Of a stretch of 53,948 nucleotides of DNA, positions 16,361-51,509 are shown piece by piece. Under the pieces are notes generated by a model. It worked only from the letters and a program-made list of their open reading frames with translations, did no database searches and had not been told where the DNA came from. Where the stretch lies: the NCBI GenBank assembly GCA_944358675.1, contig CALVRN010000007.1, positions 1-53,948 of the forward strand, written 5' to 3'. The position numbers and the translations under genes were made by a program. Source of the stretch: an uncultured Bacilli bacterium. GTDB lineage: Bacteria > Bacillota_I > Bacilli_A > RF39 > UBA660. Within the stretch, counting starts at the first letter, position 1, and each line of letters opens with the position of its first letter.

Positions 16361-16389
16361 ATCATACTATTTTTCGGGAAATAATTCAA
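16361..16389 (-). promoter_or_regulatory. noc promoter with NBS-like operator in the spacer
   Basis: On the minus strand TTGAAT (16389-16384), a 17-bp spacer and TATGAT (16366-16361) form a good vegetative promoter. The spacer contains ATTTCCCGAAAAAT (16382-16369), which differs from the Noc binding site ATTTCCCGGGAAAT at two of 14 positions. A Noc dimer here would block RNA polymerase, so autorepression is likely. Confidence 0.6.
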
Positions 16390-19423: not shown

Positions 19424-20773
19424 TTATTTTCCAACACAAAATCTACTAAATAATTGATCTAATAACTCTTCATCATAACTTTCACCAATTATCTCACCTA
19501 GTAAATTCCATATATTCTTTAAATCAATTTCCACCATATCAATAGGATAATTTTCTTCAATCCCTTTTCGAACCGCTTTAACACTCTCTAAAACTTTTCT
19601 AAGTATAGCCCCACTTCTCGCACTAGTCAAATAAGTTAAATCAGTCATTTCTATTTTTTCTAAATTAAATAACTTCTTAATCTTATTACCTATTTCATCA
19701 ATATTCTCATCATTTAAAGCACTAACATAAACCACATTAGAAAGTTTATCATCATCAATTTTTTTATCTAAATCTGTCTTATTAACTATCGTAATATAAT
19801 TTTTATCCTTTAATTTATCTAAAATCACTAAATCATCATGACTTAATTTCTCATTATAATTAACTACAAATAAAATCAAATCAGCTTCATCGATTAATTT
19901 TAAACTTTTATCTACTCCAATACTTTCAACAACATCATCTGTTTTTCTAATGCCCGCTGTATCAATTAAATTCAAAATTAAATTATCTATACGCAAAGTA
20001 GCTTCGACACTATCGCGTGTTGTTCCCTGAATATCTGTAACAATAGCCTTTTCTTCACCAATTAATCTATTAAGTAAACTACTTTTTCCAACATTAGGTT
20101 TCCCAACAATAGCTGTTTTAATACCATTAGTCAAAATTTCACCATTTTTACTTTCTTTCAAAATTTTATCAATTTTACTTTCAAGTTCACTTAAATTAGA
20201 ATTGATCTTTTCAATTGTCATCTCTTCAATGTCCTCATACTCAGGATAATCGATATTAACTTCAATATTTGCAATTATTCCAGCAAGTTCATCTCGAAGT
20301 TTACTAATCATTGAAGAAACCTTGCCACCAACCTGATTCAAAGCTATTTTCCGGGAAATATCTGTTTTAGAATTAATTAAATCCATAACCCCTTCAGCTT
20401 CAGTCAAATCAATTCTACCATTCAAAAAGGCTCTTTTAGTAAACTCACCAGGCTCAGCTAATCTACATCCATTAACAAGTAATAACTCTAAAATCTTATC
20501 AGTTGTCATAATACCACCATGAGCATTAATTTCAACAACATCTTCTTTAGTAAAAGTCCTAGGAGCCCTCATAATACTAACTAATACTTCATCAACTTTT
20601 TCATTATTATCCAGTATATAACCATAATGAATAGTATGACTTGGTGCATCTAAAAAATTTTTATTAGAAAAAATTTTACTAACTATTTTAATAGCATCAA
20701 CACCACTAACTCTAATAATAGAAATAGCACCAACACCCTGAGCAGTTGAAATAGCTGCAATTGTATCATCCAT
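19424..20773 (-). CDS. mnmE: tRNA modification GTPase
   Basis: MnmE is the GTPase partner of MnmG. The 449-residue protein has the N-terminal formyl-THF-binding domain (AAISTAQGVGAISIIRVSG), the helical domain with the inserted Ras-like G domain (P-loop GKPNVGKSS at 224-232, DTAGIR, NKTD) and the invariant C-terminal FCVGK. GAGGTG precedes the ATG. The upstream HD-domain gene ends 4 bases before its start in the same direction. The NBS-like site ATTTTCCGGGAAAT lies inside it at 20346-20359. Confidence 0.96.
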   Translation of the reverse strand: MDDTIAAISTAQGVGAISIIRVSGVDAIKIVSKIFSNKNFLDAPSHTIHYGYILDNNEKVDEVLVSIMRAPRTFTKEDVVEINAHGGIMTTDKILELLLVNGCRLAEPGEFTKRAFLNGRIDLTEAEGVMDLINSKTDISRKIALNQVGGKVSSMISKLRDELAGIIANIEVNIDYPEYEDIEEMTIEKINSNLSELESKIDKILKESKNGEILTNGIKTAIVGKPNVGKSSLLNRLIGEEKAIVTDIQGTTRDSVEATLRIDNLILNLIDTAGIRKTDDVVESIGVDKSLKLIDEADLILFVVNYNEKLSHDDLVILDKLKDKNYITIVNKTDLDKKIDDDKLSNVVYVSALNDENIDEIGNKIKKLFNLEKIEMTDLTYLTSARSGAILRKVLESVKAVRKGIEENYPIDMVEIDLKNIWNLLGEIIGESYDEELLDQLFSRFCVGK

Positions 20774-31828: not shown

Positions 31829-34270
31829 ATGGATCACACAAGAGATAGATTACAAGAAAACAACATAGTAAATGAAATTGAAAGTTCTTTTATAGAATAT
31901 TCAATGAGTGTTATTAAATCACGTGCCCTACCCGATTTAAGAGATGGTTTAAAACCTGTACATCGTCGTATTTTATATTCAATGTTTGAATCAGGATACA
32001 CTCCAGATAAACCTCATAAGAAAAGTGCAAAAACAGTCGGAGAAGTTATGGGTAACTATCACCCACATGGTGACTCAAGTATTTATGAAGCCATGGTTCG
32101 TATGGCTCAAGATTTTAGTTATAGATATCCTTTAATTGATGGGCATGGAAACTTTGGTAATATCGAAGGTTATGGTGCAGCAGCTATGCGTTATACCGAA
32201 TCTAGATTAGCTAAAATATCCTTAGAATTATTGCGAGATATAAATAAAAACACAGTAGATTTCACTACTAACTATGATGAAACAAGAAAAGAACCTGTAG
32301 TGTTACCTTCTCGTTTTCCAAATATTTTAGTTAATGGAACAATGGGTATTGCCGTTGGTATGGCAACCAATATACCACCACATAATCTAGGTGAAGTAAT
32401 AGATGGTTGTATTGCATATATTGATAATCCAGACATTGATACTGATGGATTAATGCAATATATTAAAGGACCAGATTTTCCAACTGGAGCGACAATACTA
32501 GGTAATAGTGGTATTAAAAAAGCCTATGAAACAGGTCGTGGAACAATTACCATTAGAAGTAAAGCTACAATTGAAGAAAAAAATGGTCGTCATTATATTG
32601 TAATTGATGAAGTACCTTATGGAGTAAATACTTCAGAGTTAAAAAACAAAGTTGCTGAACTTGTCCACACCAAAGTAATTGATGGTATATCTGATTATCA
32701 TACAGATCTAAAAGATGGTATTAAAATAACTATTACATTAAAAAAAGATGCTAATCCTCAAGTTGTTTTAAATAACTTATATAAACACACACAATTTCAA
32801 ACAACCTATGGAATTATCTTATTAATGCTTGATAATAATACTCCAAGAACTTTAGGACTAAAAGATATTATTTCAAAATATGTAGATTATCAAAAAGAAG
32901 TTATTATTAGAAGAACAAGATTTGATTTAGATAAAGCCGAAAAAAGAGTTCATATTTTAGAAGGATATAAAATAGCTCTTGATAATATCGATGATTTTAT
33001 TCAAATAATAAAAGAAGCTCAAACAGATACTGAAGCTAAAACAAAATTAATCTCTAAATATAGTTTAACTGAAATTCAAGCCGAAGCTATTTTAGAATTA
33101 AAATTACGTCGTTTAACAGGATTAGAAAGAGATAAAATTGAAGCCGAATTAAACGATTTATTAGAAAAAATTAAATATTACAAAGAAATTCTTGCATCAG
33201 AAGCCAAAGTATTAGAAATTATCAAAACAGAAATGTTAGAAATCAAAAATAAATATGGTGATGAAAGACATACAAACATTGATATGACAGCAATTGATTA
33301 CATAGAGGATGAATCACTCATACCTGTGGAAAACATCGTTGTAACCTTAACTAATAAAGGTTATATCAAACGTATGACTAGTGAAACCTATAAAACTCAA
33401 AATCGTGGCGGTGTTGGAATAAAAGGTATGACTACAAATGAAAATGATTTTGTGGAAAAACTAATATCAATGACAACCCATGATTACTTGATGTTCTTTA
33501 CCAACAAAGGTAAAGCATATAGAGTTAAAGGTTATGAAATACCACAATATAGTCGTCAATCAAAAGGTATACCAATAGTTAATTTATTACCATTTGATAA
33601 AGAAGAAGAAGTTACAGCAATGCTTAAAATAGATCAAAATGAAGATAATAAGAATATTGTATTTTGTACACAAAATGGATTAATCAAACGTACAGCATTA
33701 ACAGAATTTGAAAATATTAGAAACAGTGGAAAAATAGCTATTTCTTTAAAAGAAAATGATCAATTAATATCAGTGAAAAAAACAACTGGGGAAAATGAAA
33801 TAATTATTGCTGCCTCAAACGGAAGAATGATTAGATTTAATGAACAAGAAATTAGAATTATGGGTAGAACTGCATCAGGAGTTAAAGGTATTGACCTCGG
33901 TGATGGTAAATGTGTAGGTTGCGAAATAGCTAATCCAGATCAACAAATTCTAGTTGTAACCGAAAAAGGATATGGAAAACGTACTAATATAAATGAATAT
34001 CGTATGACACACCGTGGTAGTAAAGGTGTTAAAGCCTTAAATATAACCGAAAAAAATGGTAACATAGTATCATTTAAAATAGTAAATAGTGATGAAGATC
34101 TAATGATAATCACAAATAGTGGTATTATTATAAGGTTATCTGTAGATCAAATTTCTACAACTGGAAGAGTTGCACAAGGTGTAAGATTAATTCATTTAAA
34201 AGACAATCAAACAGTAAGTAGTATTGCTTTACTTGATAAAGAAACAGCAGAAGAAATTCAAGAAGAATAA
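31829..34270 (+). CDS. gyrA: DNA gyrase subunit A
   Basis: The 813-residue protein has the winged-helix breakage domain with catalytic tyrosine in [10 protein letters not shown], the quinolone region [17 protein letters not shown] with Ser and Glu at the usual sensitive positions, the coiled coil and GyrA box ([10 protein letters not shown]), and six beta-pinwheel repeats. AGGAGG and 10 bases separate it from gyrB. Confidence 0.97.
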
Positions 34271-34308
34271 GAAAACTAACAAAATGTTTCACGTGAAACA
34301 TTAGAATA

Positions 34309-34335
34309 AAAGACGGAAAAACATCCGTTCTTTTT
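34309..34335 (+). terminator. terminator of gyrA
   Basis: ACGGA, a 7-base loop, TCCGT and TTCTTTTT, 39 bases after the stop and just after the first parS. Confidence 0.75.
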
Positions 34336-34462
34336 AATAAAAAAATCAATGTTTCACGTGAAACATATAGCGTTTCATTAATACTAATATTATAAATAAA
34401 AGAAAATTATCAATATCTAGAATAAGATATATATAATAAAAAATATTAAAATAATAAAAAAA

Positions 34463-34791
34463 ATATCCACAGTAATAATGTTTCACGTGAAACATTTTGA
34501 CAATTTCTAACAAATACTATTCGTATTTAACTATATTTAAAATGAAATATAATGTATATAAAAATTAGAAAGATATCCACAGTACTAATGTTTCACGTGA
34601 AACATTTTGGCAATTTCTAACAAATACTATTCGTATTTAACTATATTTAAAATGAAATATAATGTATATAAAAATTAAAAAGATATCCACAGCACTAATG
34701 TTTCACGTGAAACATTTTGGCAATTTCTAAAAATTATTGTTTATATTTAATTACGTTCAAAATAGGAATATAAGTATTTATAAAAATAAAA
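34463..34791 (+). repeat. 110-bp tandem repeat, each unit with DnaA-like box plus parS
   Basis: Three units begin at about 34463, 34573 and 34683, exactly 110 bp apart. Units 1 and 2 differ at only a few bases; unit 3 decays after about 50 bases. Each holds ATATCCACA, 7 bases, parS, then the common tail CAATTTCTAA and an AT-rich stretch ending near ATAATGTATATA. At the phase of a fourth unit a degraded palindrome TATTTCATGTAAATAT (34810) remains. Confidence 0.85.
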
Positions 34792-34958
34792 AACATTCGA
34801 AATTGTATATATTTCATGTAAATATATTAGAAATTTATTAATTTTAGTATTATAAATTAAATAAAATAATTCATTCGATTTAATCTATTTTAAAATAAAT
34901 CAATAATAAAAGCATTCATATTAAAAACAAAATTACATTACAATAATAAAGAAATAAA

Positions 34959-35004
34959 TTATCCACAGTACTAATGTTTCACGTGAAACATTAGTACTTT
35001 TTTT
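34959..35004 (+). promoter_or_regulatory. DnaA box next to parS inside a 32-bp perfect palindrome with T-run
   Basis: TTATCCACA (34959-34967) is followed 7 bases later by parS (34975). The palindrome extends from 34967 to 34998 without mismatch (arms AGTACTAATGTTTCAC) and is followed by six Ts, so the element could also act as a terminator. Its only short non-parS arms set it apart from the other copies. Confidence 0.6.
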
Positions 35005-35269
35005 ATAAATATAATTAATTCATCTCATACTATGTATATAAATTTATTATATTACACTAAATTTAATTAATTAAAGTTAAAAATAATATATTTTTCATAC
35101 ATTTATTAATTTAAAACAAATAAAATAATCAAAATGTTTCACGTGAAACATTGGTTAATATGTTTATATATTTATTATAAATTTGTTTAATCTATTTTTG
35201 ATAAAATGTTTCACGTGAAACATTAAATAAAAAAATACTGTGGAAAAACACTTTTTTTATCTACTTTTA

Positions 35270-35296
35270 TTGAAATTTTAATAAAAATATTATAAT
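35270..35296 (+). promoter_or_regulatory. promoter of SRP RNA
   Basis: TTGAAA (35270-35275), 15-bp spacer and TATAAT (35291-35296), about 9 bases before the RNA. The spacing is short but the hexamers are good. Confidence 0.5.
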
Positions 35297-35304
35297 ATAT
35301 TAAT

Positions 35305-35377
35305 GGTACAACATTTATAACTGAACCAGGTCAGAATCGGAAGATAGCAGCCTTAAGGTCCTCTAAATGTGTGTACC
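35305..35377 (+). ncRNA. ffs: SRP RNA (4.5S-like, short form)
   Basis: The core with the GGAA tetraloop (GGTCAGAATCGGAAGATAGC then AGCC) is the domain IV binding site for Ffh. Ends pair by GGTACA/TGTACC plus ACATTTA/TAAATGT, and T-run follows. At 73 nt it lacks the Alu domain of the ~270-nt Bacillus RNA. It sits just before tadA, whereas in Bacillus it follows tadA. Confidence 0.85.
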
Positions 35378-35396
35378 TTTTTATTTAGGTGATAAT

Positions 35397-35801
35397 ATGA
35401 ATAAATATATGGAAATAGCTCTCAAAGAAGCTCAAAAAAGTTTGAAAACAAATGATGTGCCAGTGGGCGCAGTTATTGTGGAAAATGATAAAATAATTGC
35501 AAAAGCTCATAATACAAGAGAAAAAAACTGTTCCATAATAGGACATGCCGAAATAAACGCAATTGAAAAAGCTTGTAAAGAGAAAAAAACATGGCATTTA
35601 GATACATGTACTTTATACGTAACCCTTGAGCCATGTCAAATGTGTATGGAAGCCGCAAAACAAGCACGAATTAAGTGTATAATATACGCAGCTGAACAAC
35701 AAAAACATCCTAATTTAAAAGAACCTCAAATGACTCAAATAAAAAATGTGGAAAACTCTAGTAATTTATTAAAACAATTCTTTCAAAGTAAAAGGAAATA
35801 A
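35397..35801 (+). CDS. tadA: tRNA adenosine-34 deaminase
   Basis: TadA makes inosine at tRNA-Arg A34. The 134-residue protein has the zinc/catalytic motif GHAEINAIEKA near residue 52 and the PCQMCMEA site near 83. I start at the ATG at 35397 (MNKYMEIALKEA): AGGTG is 6 bases upstream. An upstream in-frame ATG would lie within the SRP RNA. Confidence 0.95.
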   Translation: MNKYMEIALKEAQKSLKTNDVPVGAVIVENDKIIAKAHNTREKNCSIIGHAEINAIEKACKEKKTWHLDTCTLYVTLEPCQMCMEAAKQARIKCIIYAAEQQKHPNLKEPQMTQIKNVENSSNLLKQFFQSKRK

Positions 35802-39751: not shown

Positions 39752-40543
39752 ATGAAGCAAGTCGTTGGTGTAAATTTTAAACCACATGGACAAGTATATT
39801 ACTTTAATCCAGGAAAATTAAATTTAAAACAAAATATTACAGTTATAGTTGAAACTGAACACGGTCTTCAATTTGGAACTGTGGTAAACCCTAAAATAGA
39901 AATAAATCCAGACAAAATTAATGGAGAATTGAAAAAAGTAATTAGAATAGCAAATAAAAATGATTATACAAAACATAGAAAAAACTTAAAAGATTCAGCT
40001 CTTGCTCTAAAAAAATGTCGCCAAATTGTTGAAAGAGATGATATGAAAATGCATATCATTGATGCAAGTTACACATTTGATCGTGACAAATTAATTTTTA
40101 GATTTTTAGCTGATAACAGAATTGATTTTAGAGAACTAGCCCGTGAACTCGCAGCCATCTATAAAGTAAGAATAGAACTTAGACAAATTGGAATTAGAGA
40201 TAAAGCTAAAGAAGTTGGTGGTTATGGACCTTGTGGTCAAAAATTATGTTGTGCCAGATTCTTACAAGATTTAAATGCTGTCTCAATAAACATGGCTAAA
40301 AATCAAAATATTGCGTTAAATCCAAGTAAAATTAATGGTGCTTGTGGTAGATTAATGTGTTGTCTAAAATATGAAGATGAATGTTATGAAGAGTGCCGAA
40401 AAGAAATGAAAAAAATAGGTGATAAAGTAAAAACTGAACACGGTGAAGGAACTATAACCGGTTTGGAAATCTTAAGACAAAAATACAAAGTTAATGTTCC
40501 AAACTATGGAATGGTAGAAGTTGATAAAAGTGAAAGTAACTAA
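39752..40543 (+). CDS. ricT: PSP1/RicT regulatory protein
   Basis: The 263-residue protein has the PSP1 domain and the cysteine sets GPCGQKLCCARFL and GACGRLMCCLKYEDEC, which in Bacillus RicT join RicA and RicF to bind Fe-S clusters and aid mRNA maturation by RNase Y. Its location after holB is the standard one. It overlaps the next gene by 23 bp. Confidence 0.93.
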   Translation: MKQVVGVNFKPHGQVYYFNPGKLNLKQNITVIVETEHGLQFGTVVNPKIEINPDKINGELKKVIRIANKNDYTKHRKNLKDSALALKKCRQIVERDDMKMHIIDASYTFDRDKLIFRFLADNRIDFRELARELAAIYKVRIELRQIGIRDKAKEVGGYGPCGQKLCCARFLQDLNAVSINMAKNQNIALNPSKINGACGRLMCCLKYEDECYEECRKEMKKIGDKVKTEHGEGTITGLEILRQKYKVNVPNYGMVEVDKSESN

Positions 40544-41249
40544 TTATTTACTCGGTTATGAAAACCTTAAAATAATTCAAGACAACGAAATGTTTAACTT
40601 TTCTTTAGATTCGGTCTTACTTCCAAACTTTATTTCAATAAATGAATCTACAAAAAACATATTAGATATTGGTACTGGTAATGCACCAATACCTTTAATT
40701 TTATCGAAAAAAACAAAAGCTAAAATAATAGGTTTAGAAATTCAAAAAGAAGTAAGCGAAATGGCTCAAGAAACAGTTAAAATGAATAATTTAGCAAACC
40801 AAATAACAATAATTAATGAAGATGCTAAAGAATATGCCAAAGCTACCACTCCAGAATTTTTTGATATAATAACTTGTAACCCACCATATTTTGAGGTTAA
40901 AAAAACATCAAGAATTAATAAAAATGATTATAAGACAATTGCTCGTCATGAAGTGACTTTAAATTTAAACGATATTCTTAAAATAGCAAGAAAACTTTTA
41001 AAAAATGGTGGAACTATTGGTTTAGTTCATAGACCAGAAAGACTAATTGATATTTTAACTATAATGCGAGAAAACAATATTGAGCCTAAAAAAATAAGAC
41101 TAATTTATCCTAGAAAAAATAAAGAAGCTAATATTTTATTAATTGAAGGAAAAAAGAACGGTAAAAAAGGTTTAAAAATTATGCCACCTTTATATAGTCA
41201 TAATCCAGATGGATCTTATACTGAAGAAATTCAAAAATACTTTAAGTGA
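40521..41249 (+). CDS. trmN6: tRNA1(Val) adenine-37 N6-methyltransferase-like protein
   Basis: The 242-residue protein has SAM motif DIGTGNAPIPLIL near residue 50 and the N6-adenine motif NPPYF near 120. Family members (YabB in Bacillus, YfiC in E. coli) methylate tRNA or similar. Start could be the TTG at 40521 or GTG at 40530; neither has a strong binding site and both lie inside ricT. Confidence 0.88.
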   Translation: MIKVKVTNYLLGYENLKIIQDNEMFNFSLDSVLLPNFISINESTKNILDIGTGNAPIPLILSKKTKAKIIGLEIQKEVSEMAQETVKMNNLANQITIINEDAKEYAKATTPEFFDIITCNPPYFEVKKTSRINKNDYKTIARHEVTLNLNDILKIARKLLKNGGTIGLVHRPERLIDILTIMRENNIEPKKIRLIYPRKNKEANILLIEGKKNGKKGLKIMPPLYSHNPDGSYTEEIQKYFK

Positions 41250-49023: not shown

Positions 49024-50640
49024 TTAATTATCCATATAATTCATTAATTTTGGAACAATTTGTTTTTTACGTGAAACAAGTCCTTCGAAGAAATGACCTT
49101 GCTCTATATTCTCTACTCCAAATGAATTTTCAAATATTTCTTTTGCTTTATCATTAAAGAAAATATAAGAACCATTTTTCAAAATATCAGTAACAAATAA
49201 AGCAATAGTAGTATATCCTTCTTCAGCTTCTTCATTTAATTCACTAATGAACTCATCTTGCTTACTCATTATTTCATCAGTACTCATAGTTGAAACTTGT
49301 CCAATTCCCACTTTTTGGTTATCCACCATAAAGTTTTTAAAGTCACCGTGAATAATTTCAGAAATAGTCTTACCTTTCATAGAAGATCCAGCTTTAAACA
49401 TTTCCATACCATACTCTCTAAAATTAACTCCTGCAATTTTAGAAAGATTTTCTAATGCTTCCCTATCTACATCAGTAGTTGTAGGTGAAGTTAAAAGTAA
49501 TGTATCAGATATAATACCAGACATCATTAATCCCGCATATTTTTTAGGAATTTTAATGTTGTGCTCCTTAAACATTAAATATAAAATAGTTTCAGTACAT
49601 CCTAAAGGCATGTTTCTAAAGTTAATAGGAATATTAGTGCCGATATTACCAATTTTGTGGTGATCAACAATCTCAATAATTTCTGCTTCATCTAAACCAA
49701 CAACACTTTGTTCTTTTTCATTATGATCAACTAAAATAACTTGTTTAGGATGACGACTATAAGCCATACTAACTCTAAATACACCCAAACATTTACCATC
49801 GTTGTCAACAACTGGATAGTTACTAAACTTTTTCTTATTAGCTAAATCTAAAATCTCACCCAAAGCATCATTTTCATTAATATAAACAATCTCTTTAGTT
49901 TTCATCTTAGTTTTAATATAGTTACTTAAAACAACTAAATTAGCGGTTGTTAAACCATCATATTTAGTACTAATAACATCTACATGATTCTTCTTCGCAA
50001 TCTCTAAGTGTTCTTTCTTCATTTTAACTCCATTAGTTAAAATAATAATAGATGCACAATTTTCAACAGCATATTCAATGATTGCATGTCTATCACCAGT
50101 AATTAAAACACTCTCTTTATCAATTTTAATATTTTCTTTAAAAGTTGTACTTCTATAACTTGGTGAGATAATATTACCGCGAATTTCCTTATCAAATCTT
50201 AAAATTTCTTTACCATTCAAAGCCTCAAGTAAATTATCATAAGAAGTATTAATTTTTCTTAAATCATTGTTAATCAAGTTACTAGCAACATCCTTCATCG
50301 TAACCGCACCTAAGTATTTTCCATCTTTATCAATAACAGGAATAGTACCAATACTAGTTTCATTCATATATTTATATCCTTTAAATATAGAATCATTTTC
50401 ATTTAAAAAACAATCTTTAGTATAATCGACATCCTTAACTTGAAGTCTTACATCGTTTAAAAACTTAGGTTCTTTAAAACCAAAATAATCTAAAGCAAAT
50501 TTAGTCTCATTATTAACATCACCTAAAATTCTAGGTTCAGTATCTAATCCTAATTGATTTTTCAAATAAGAAAGTACAATTGCAGATGTAACACTATCAG
50601 TATCAGGTTTCTGATGTCCAAAAATTAAAACTTTACTCAA
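49024..50640 (-). CDS. ppaC: Mn-dependent inorganic pyrophosphatase with CBS and DRTGG domains
   Basis: The 538-residue enzyme hydrolyses pyrophosphate. It has the family II DHH core (GHQKPDTDSVTSAIVLSYL at the start, VDHHKIGNIGT near 335, RNMPLGCTETI) split by two CBS domains (GTIPVIDKDGKYLGAVTMKD, SNYPVVDNDGKCLGVFRVSM) around a DRTGG domain. Such versions are regulated by adenine nucleotides. A TTG start at 50640 is preferred because AAGGAGGAG lies 5 bases upstream; the ATG at 50658 is before that site. Confidence 0.93.
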   Translation of the reverse strand: MSKVLIFGHQKPDTDSVTSAIVLSYLKNQLGLDTEPRILGDVNNETKFALDYFGFKEPKFLNDVRLQVKDVDYTKDCFLNENDSIFKGYKYMNETSIGTIPVIDKDGKYLGAVTMKDVASNLINNDLRKINTSYDNLLEALNGKEILRFDKEIRGNIISPSYRSTTFKENIKIDKESVLITGDRHAIIEYAVENCASIIILTNGVKMKKEHLEIAKKNHVDVISTKYDGLTTANLVVLSNYIKTKMKTKEIVYINENDALGEILDLANKKKFSNYPVVDNDGKCLGVFRVSMAYSRHPKQVILVDHNEKEQSVVGLDEAEIIEIVDHHKIGNIGTNIPINFRNMPLGCTETILYLMFKEHNIKIPKKYAGLMMSGIISDTLLLTSPTTTDVDREALENLSKIAGVNFREYGMEMFKAGSSMKGKTISEIIHGDFKNFMVDNQKVGIGQVSTMSTDEIMSKQDEFISELNEEAEEGYTTIALFVTDILKNGSYIFFNDKAKEIFENSFGVENIEQGHFFEGLVSRKKQIVPKLMNYMDN

Positions 50641-51295: not shown

Positions 51296-51509
51296 TTAAA
51301 TGCGCTGAAAGAAAGAAAAGTAGGTAACTTTATAGAGAGTTTATGGTTGGTGGAAATAAACAAGGTGACTACTCCGAATGGTTCTGAAGCAGTCTAGTCG
51401 ATACGTAGGCTAGAACGGGTCACATCCGTTACATGTTTGAGGTAAGCTATGCTTATAAATTAAGGTGGTACCACGTCATAAACGTCCTTATTCTAAGGAT
51501 GTTTTTTTC
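51296..51509 (+). promoter_or_regulatory. T-box leader, probably methionine-specific
   Basis: The T-box itself AAGGTGGTACCACG (51462-51475) and the terminator ACGTCCTTA / TAAGGATGT plus T-run (51482-51508) are plain. Upstream AGAGAG, GGTTGGTG and the stem I region are present. The probable specifier is ATG at 51378-51380 within CCGAATGGTTC, which agrees with metG downstream. Uncharged tRNA-Met pairing at the specifier and T-box bulge would prevent the terminator. Confidence 0.85.

Follow-up and report, generated by a model that had tools for sequence, protein, structure and literature searches.

The ParABS system of Bacillus subtilis, Spo0J-Soj-parS, combines 16-bp parS sites located close to the origin with the ParB protein Spo0J, an adjacent ParA and SMC. 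At parS, ParB is loaded in the form of a CTP clamp, which then slides. Sets of 20-23 parS near the origin have been reported in Streptomyces and Listeria (PMC7333895), so that a high number of parS is not in itself unusual, and the reason for the clustering of parS and the variation in their number is considered an open question (PMC7333895). The closest precedent for replication initiator sites at an origin-near centromere is found in Caulobacter crescentus, with DnaA boxes and DnaA at the parS centromere (Mera et al. 2014, reviewed in PMC6399470). In chromosome II of Vibrio cholerae, the initiator RctB binds at the centromere (PMC6399470), and in plasmid P1 bound RepA has been reported to hinder ParB spreading (PMC7333895). 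Neither a composite of DnaA boxes and parS in Bacilli nor any work on RF39-type bacteria was found in the literature searched, which under-represents subscription journals.

The locus described here lies in a stretch of 53,948 nucleotides (the window) from an uncultured Bacilli bacterium. It has in common with the B. subtilis system the 16-bp parS, a Spo0J-like ParB with an adjacent ParA, SMC and the origin-proximal position, but all the sites found are in a single intergenic gap, many of them with a phased DnaA box. An earlier, sequence-only reading had noticed eight exact copies of parS (TGTTTCACGTGAAACA) in the gap between gyrA and ffs, and all of them were confirmed as perfect, spanning 938 bp in all (34285-35222; Table 1). 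Not a single copy appeared in 100 dinucleotide shuffles of the window. A genome-wide search for the 16-mer rendered no exact copy outside the array, a result that applies to the draft assembly (1.21 Mb, 45 contigs, 85% complete), and the sole further match within two mismatches was located at window position 49063; the 16-mer is not common in this genome. The distance between parS sites ranges from 65 to 276 bp here and from 37 to 330 bp across the genus, and no signal of helical phasing between successive sites was observed over periods of 9.5-12 bp. The array is 8.8 kb from the start of dnaA, and the GC skew changes sign at ca. 25 kb, just ahead of dnaA, which locates the origin there; the 16-mer is thus found near the origin, as in a chromosomal ParABS centromere. 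The sets of Streptomyces and Listeria, known by site number, also comprise many chromosomal parS near the origin, whereas here eight sites are packed in 0.94 kb together with DnaA boxes. The called start of the tadA-like ORF overlaps the end of ffs, and its true start is therefore probably located further in.

Table 1. Coordinates in the window of the parS array, its predicted DnaA boxes and related genes
Feature	Position	Strand	Remarks
Noc-like ParB-family protein, 577 aa	14596..16329	-	Noc-type helix-turn-helix residues
dnaA	25474..26817	+	gaps on both sides carry boxes of the array types (TTTTCCACA, TTATCCACA)
gyrA	31829..34270	+	left neighbour of the array in all genus genomes whose contig reaches that far
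parS 1, exact TGTTTCACGTGAAACA	34285..34300	.	14 bp past the gyrA stop codon
parS 2, exact	34350..34365	.	
Three tandem 110-bp units, one DnaA box and one parS each	34447..34776	+	copies 94% and 77% like the first
DnaA box ATATCCACA, type L	34463..34471	+	7 bp from parS 3, pointing to it
parS 3, exact	34479..34494	.	
DnaA box ATATCCACA, type L	34573..34581	+	7 bp from parS 4
parS 4, exact	34589..34604	.	
DnaA box ATATCCACA, type L	34683..34691	+	7 bp from parS 5
parS 5, exact	34699..34714	.	
DnaA box TTATCCACA (consensus), type L	34959..34967	+	7 bp from parS 6
parS 6, exact	34975..34990	.	within a longer palindrome with 8-bp arms, AGTACTAA-parS-TTAGTACT
parS 7, exact	35135..35150	.	
parS 8, exact	35207..35222	.	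final parS ahead of ffs
DnaA box TTTTCCACA, type R	35239..35247	-	16 bp from parS 8, pointing to it from the ffs side
ffs, bacterial small SRP RNA	35295..35392	+	right neighbour of the array; RF00169, 59 bits
tadA-like tRNA deaminase ORF	35367..35801	+	from the ORF list

A ParB protein of 291 amino acids with a Spo0J-type helix-turn-helix is encoded in another contig of the genome, C9, and matches B. subtilis Spo0J (6sdk) with an E value of 1.8e-64. At the specificity positions 173, 179, 184 and 201 (Caulobacter numbering, from its own sequence and the 6sdk alignment) it carries R, M, R and G, and thus includes R173 and G201, which have been reported to be absolutely conserved in ParB (PMC7383237). 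Immediately upstream of it is an ORF of 261 amino acids (L007:8313-9098), named ParA from its own sequence, which provides the partner characteristic of a chromosomal ParABS centromere. SMC was also found in this genome, and strong ParB-type matches are present in nearly all of the 44 genomes of the genus. The 291-residue ParB is the protein expected to bind parS here. The proposal of a densely packed zone for ParB loading, some 9 kb away from dnaA, is supported by the existence of this Spo0J-type ParB and by the rarity of the 16-mer and, because a parS-type ParB, ParA and SMC are all present, the array very likely represents the centromere of the chromosome. The ParB of genome G028 (L179, G028:C10:23036-23908) is 100% identical to that of G000 while the GyrA proteins are only about 93% identical, which may reflect transfer or a misbinned contig.

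The window itself encodes a ParB-family paralogue of the Noc kind, known from nucleoid occlusion (Noc/NBS). Its best structural matches are Noc proteins and its specificity residues are Q, K, N and R, which are of the Noc type, so that it is unlikely to be the parS binder; judging from these helix-turn-helix residues it should prefer the Noc site over parS. It consists of ParB and helix-turn-helix domains followed by a disordered-looking linker of ca. 300 residues and a short C-terminal domain, and no N-terminal amphipathic helix of the B. subtilis Noc kind was seen in its sequence. The open frames of its homologues in the genus range from ca. 350 to 710 amino acids. The Noc binding site TATTTCCCGGGAAATA is absent from the array, and its best matches in the genome are located in the window at 20345-20360 (one mismatch) and 16368-16383 (two mismatches). 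The position of the latter, immediately ahead of the noc-like gene, is suggestive of autoregulation.

The most unusual feature of the array, and one that the earlier reading did not mention, is the presence of phased DnaA boxes. Five are predicted in the gap, so that DnaA boxes are found at the putative centromere as in the DnaA-linked centromere of the Caulobacter type; three of them are ATATCCACA, one base off the consensus. Their layout with respect to the eight parS can be written as ..LLLL.R, an arrangement that is frequent in the clade of the window, in which near-side boxes occupy the middle of the array and a single far-side box accompanies the parS closest to ffs. Both box types recur in the gaps flanking dnaA, where they also form a TTTTCCACA-C-TTATCCACA tandem ahead of dnaN. 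Compared by description, the Caulobacter centromere differs from this Bacilli locus, where many boxes occur in a repeated parS-box unit, at two fixed distances and with constant facing. As in the rctA/parS2 locus of V. cholerae chromosome II (PMC6399470), sites for an initiator and for ParB share one origin-adjacent locus, although that locus involves RctB instead of DnaA, another type of replicon and a different parS2 motif.

The geometry of boxes and parS was analysed in 33 gap pieces (29.7 kb, 20% G+C) from 30 genomes of the genus. With at most two mismatches allowed, these pieces contain 209 parS (177 exact), as well as 79 DnaA-box 9-mers; the box counts do not represent independent events, since the sites are partly tandem copies within genomes and the species share ancestry. 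The nearest parS is faced by 78 of the 79 boxes, and 75 fall into one of two distance classes, 6-8 bp (38 boxes) or 15-20 bp (37 boxes), with modes at 7 and 18 bp, about one helical turn apart. Among the 192 fully flanked sites, the close class is found exclusively on the gyrA side (37) and the far class exclusively on the ffs side (37), and no single parS carries both. Dinucleotide shuffles with the parS held in place rendered 1.9 boxes in all, 0.04 in the close and 0.12 in the far window. With parS as the anchor of the alignment, the boxes show invariant G and C positions and most flanking positions are near background, in gaps that share 57-85% of aligned bases between neighbouring species and contain many indels. 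On the other hand, ca. 60% of the parS sites have no phased box and several members of the genus with arrays have none at all, which indicates that an array can work without boxes.

Outside the genus this arrangement was not observed. A search of the genome collection for TTWTCCACAG-NNN-TAA-parS gave 13 contigs, each of them titled uncultured Bacilli bacterium. When 395 genomes of the class were sampled, TCCACA at 6-20 bp from parS turned up in just two other genomes, at distances of 14 and 11 bp. No box was present at the phased positions in 108 parS, mostly from other genera of the family and some from box-less members of the genus, or in 43 outgroup parS sites, and the box-parS arrangement is therefore confined to the genus among the parS examined. 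In a GyrA tree, in which several forks are weakly supported, far-side boxes are found in a clade of 22 species and in one species outside it, near-side boxes are restricted to 18 species forming an inner clade, and the basal species have box-less arrays. This different distribution of the two classes suggests that two box placements arose and were kept.

The parS arrays themselves have a wider distribution. Comparison of the gyrA-ffs gap in related genomes showed arrays throughout the genus at the same gyrA-ffs-tadA address. Exact parS are present in 32 of the 44 genomes of the genus, and seven of the remaining 12 carry variant sites (TGTTCCACGTGAAACA or TGTTTCACGTGAAACT, for example), in most cases arranged in similar arrays; every array examined in the genus sits between gyrA and tadA where the contig reaches the flanks, and the 20 gaps that are whole on one contig contain 4-12 parS (median 8) in a median of 1.2 kb. 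Of 117 genomes sampled across the family, almost all from separate genera, 95 carry 1-18 sites, and in the 30 loci inspected parS adjoins gyrA, tadA or dnaX. In the five genomes inspected from a more distant, probably spiroplasma-like family of the class, one or two sites are located just before tadA, with gyrA just upstream in four of them. That this address recurs at all three levels, genus, family and more distant relatives, indicates that the gyrA-tadA gap is very likely an old centromere address, with amplification in the family. An assembly artefact can be ruled out, as the arrays recur at the same address in separate assemblies; several contigs end within the array, as expected of repeats. 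In the basal members of the genus G006, G013, G011 and G061 (L107, L041, L108 and L106), tight tandem arrays with a spacing of 36-48 bp were seen, largely built of the variants mentioned above.

This distribution bears on two further ideas of the sequence-only reading, namely that the cluster is plasmid-centromere-like and that it is related to genome reduction. The many repeats in less than 1 kb do resemble, in appearance only, iteron-type plasmid centromeres. Nevertheless, the partition site of an integrated plasmid has next to no probability as an explanation and is refuted by the conserved position: the place between gyrA and tadA is shared from the genus through the family to distant members of the class, where a plasmid site would be mobile and linked to plasmid replication or partition genes, and the repeated motif is that of chromosomal parS. 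The contig with the chromosomal ParA/ParB pair also carries ychF-like and ftsH-like genes and no plasmid genes. As to genome reduction, a distantly related family within the class, whose genomes measure ca. 0.7-2.2 Mb, has only 0-3 exact sites. Since arrays are common to the genus and family and one or two sites occur in distant relatives, both ideas are left unsupported.

From what is directly established, that is, the sites, their spacing and orientation statistics, their conservation and phylogenetic distribution, and the presence of ParA, ParB, SMC and DnaA, we consider it reasonably probable that the array is a composite centromere in which, in this genus, DnaA binds beside ParB and couples the initiator to segregation. 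The eight sites after gyrA would be loading sites for ParB (Spo0J), served by the ParA-ParB pair of contig C9, and the array would probably load SMC. DnaA would bind the fixed boxes jointly with ParB, the two box classes, at 6-8 and about 16-18 bp, being on about the same face of the helix, and DnaA adjacent to parS may gate the loading or release of the ParB clamp, or form a one-sided barrier, so that segregation would track the state of the initiator. Docking of DnaA beside ParB is favoured because a bound protein could block or steer the clamp and because initiators are known at centromeres. The occupancy of the sites by ParB and DnaA, the direction of the coupling and its outcome are inferred from sequence. 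A stricter, stereospecific form, in which DnaA on a fixed helix face would control clamp loading or sliding direction, each parS unit would read the initiator state, and the system would have evolved within one genus from a plain parS array, is put forward tentatively, and we would not give it even chances.

The main rival to this composite centromere is a reservoir in which the boxes would bind DnaA to limit or time initiation, in a datA-like manner, and ParB clamps leaving parS would displace DnaA, so that the link would run from segregation to replication. YabA is a regulator of DnaA in B. subtilis. It had no match over the family cut-off in the 44 genomes of the genus, whereas the B. subtilis and Lactococcus lactis controls were detected, and another control of initiation may thus be needed; moreover, the parS2 locus rctA of V. 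cholerae chromosome II titrates the initiator RctB (PMC6399470). Nonetheless, a reservoir requires no facing to parS and no pair of distances that differ by about one helical turn, and the five boxes found here make a small store, so that we regard it as unlikely. It is also decidedly unlikely that the parS array alone matters and the boxes, caught once in an ancestral unit, were copied with parS without any function. The 110-bp tandem units do contain both elements, duplication keeps orientation and could explain why close boxes are never found on the ffs side, and the basal members of the genus lack boxes; against this, the box bases stay constant against drifting spacers and flanks, two distinct placements have the same facing and phase, and many units have little in common beyond parS and box.

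A role of the boxes or palindromes in the transcription of gyrA or ffs, as terminators or operators, with the proximity to parS being incidental, appears very improbable. Several parS lie within longer, hairpin-forming palindromes, in the case of parS 6 followed by a T-run, and the last box is upstream of ffs. However, a terminator-like hairpin of gyrA itself lies between parS 1 and 2, many species have boxes at inner parS, far from ffs, and T-runs after long-armed parS are rare (6 of 72), which disfavours the palindrome arms as terminators. If the boxes act on segregation, as the composite centromere would imply, their phasing suggests a direct physical link between the start of replication and the movement of the chromosome. 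The coupling of initiation and segregation is, like the clustering of parS, an open question, for which this genus offers a repeated and geometrically precise DnaA-box/parS unit, with the box-less sister species as natural controls, and which can be turned into a simple test on short DNA.

In the array (34283-35224) and the related gaps, many parS form part of longer perfect palindromes: arms of at least 5 bp beyond the 16-mer were found in 65 of 192 genus parS, as compared to about six expected. The arms vary in sequence from site to site and match left to right; such longer palindromes also occur at 26 of 90 sites in the family and, less markedly, in the outgroups. Template-switch repair, hairpins or terminators are candidate causes. 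Elsewhere in the window, ricT-like and trmN6-like genes overlap (39752-41249), with no yabA between them, and a collagen-like protein of 292 amino acids with long GATGAT-type repeats is encoded at 1640-2518. A T-box leader (RF00230) is located at 51296-51492, upstream of dUTPase-like and methionyl-tRNA synthetase-like genes.
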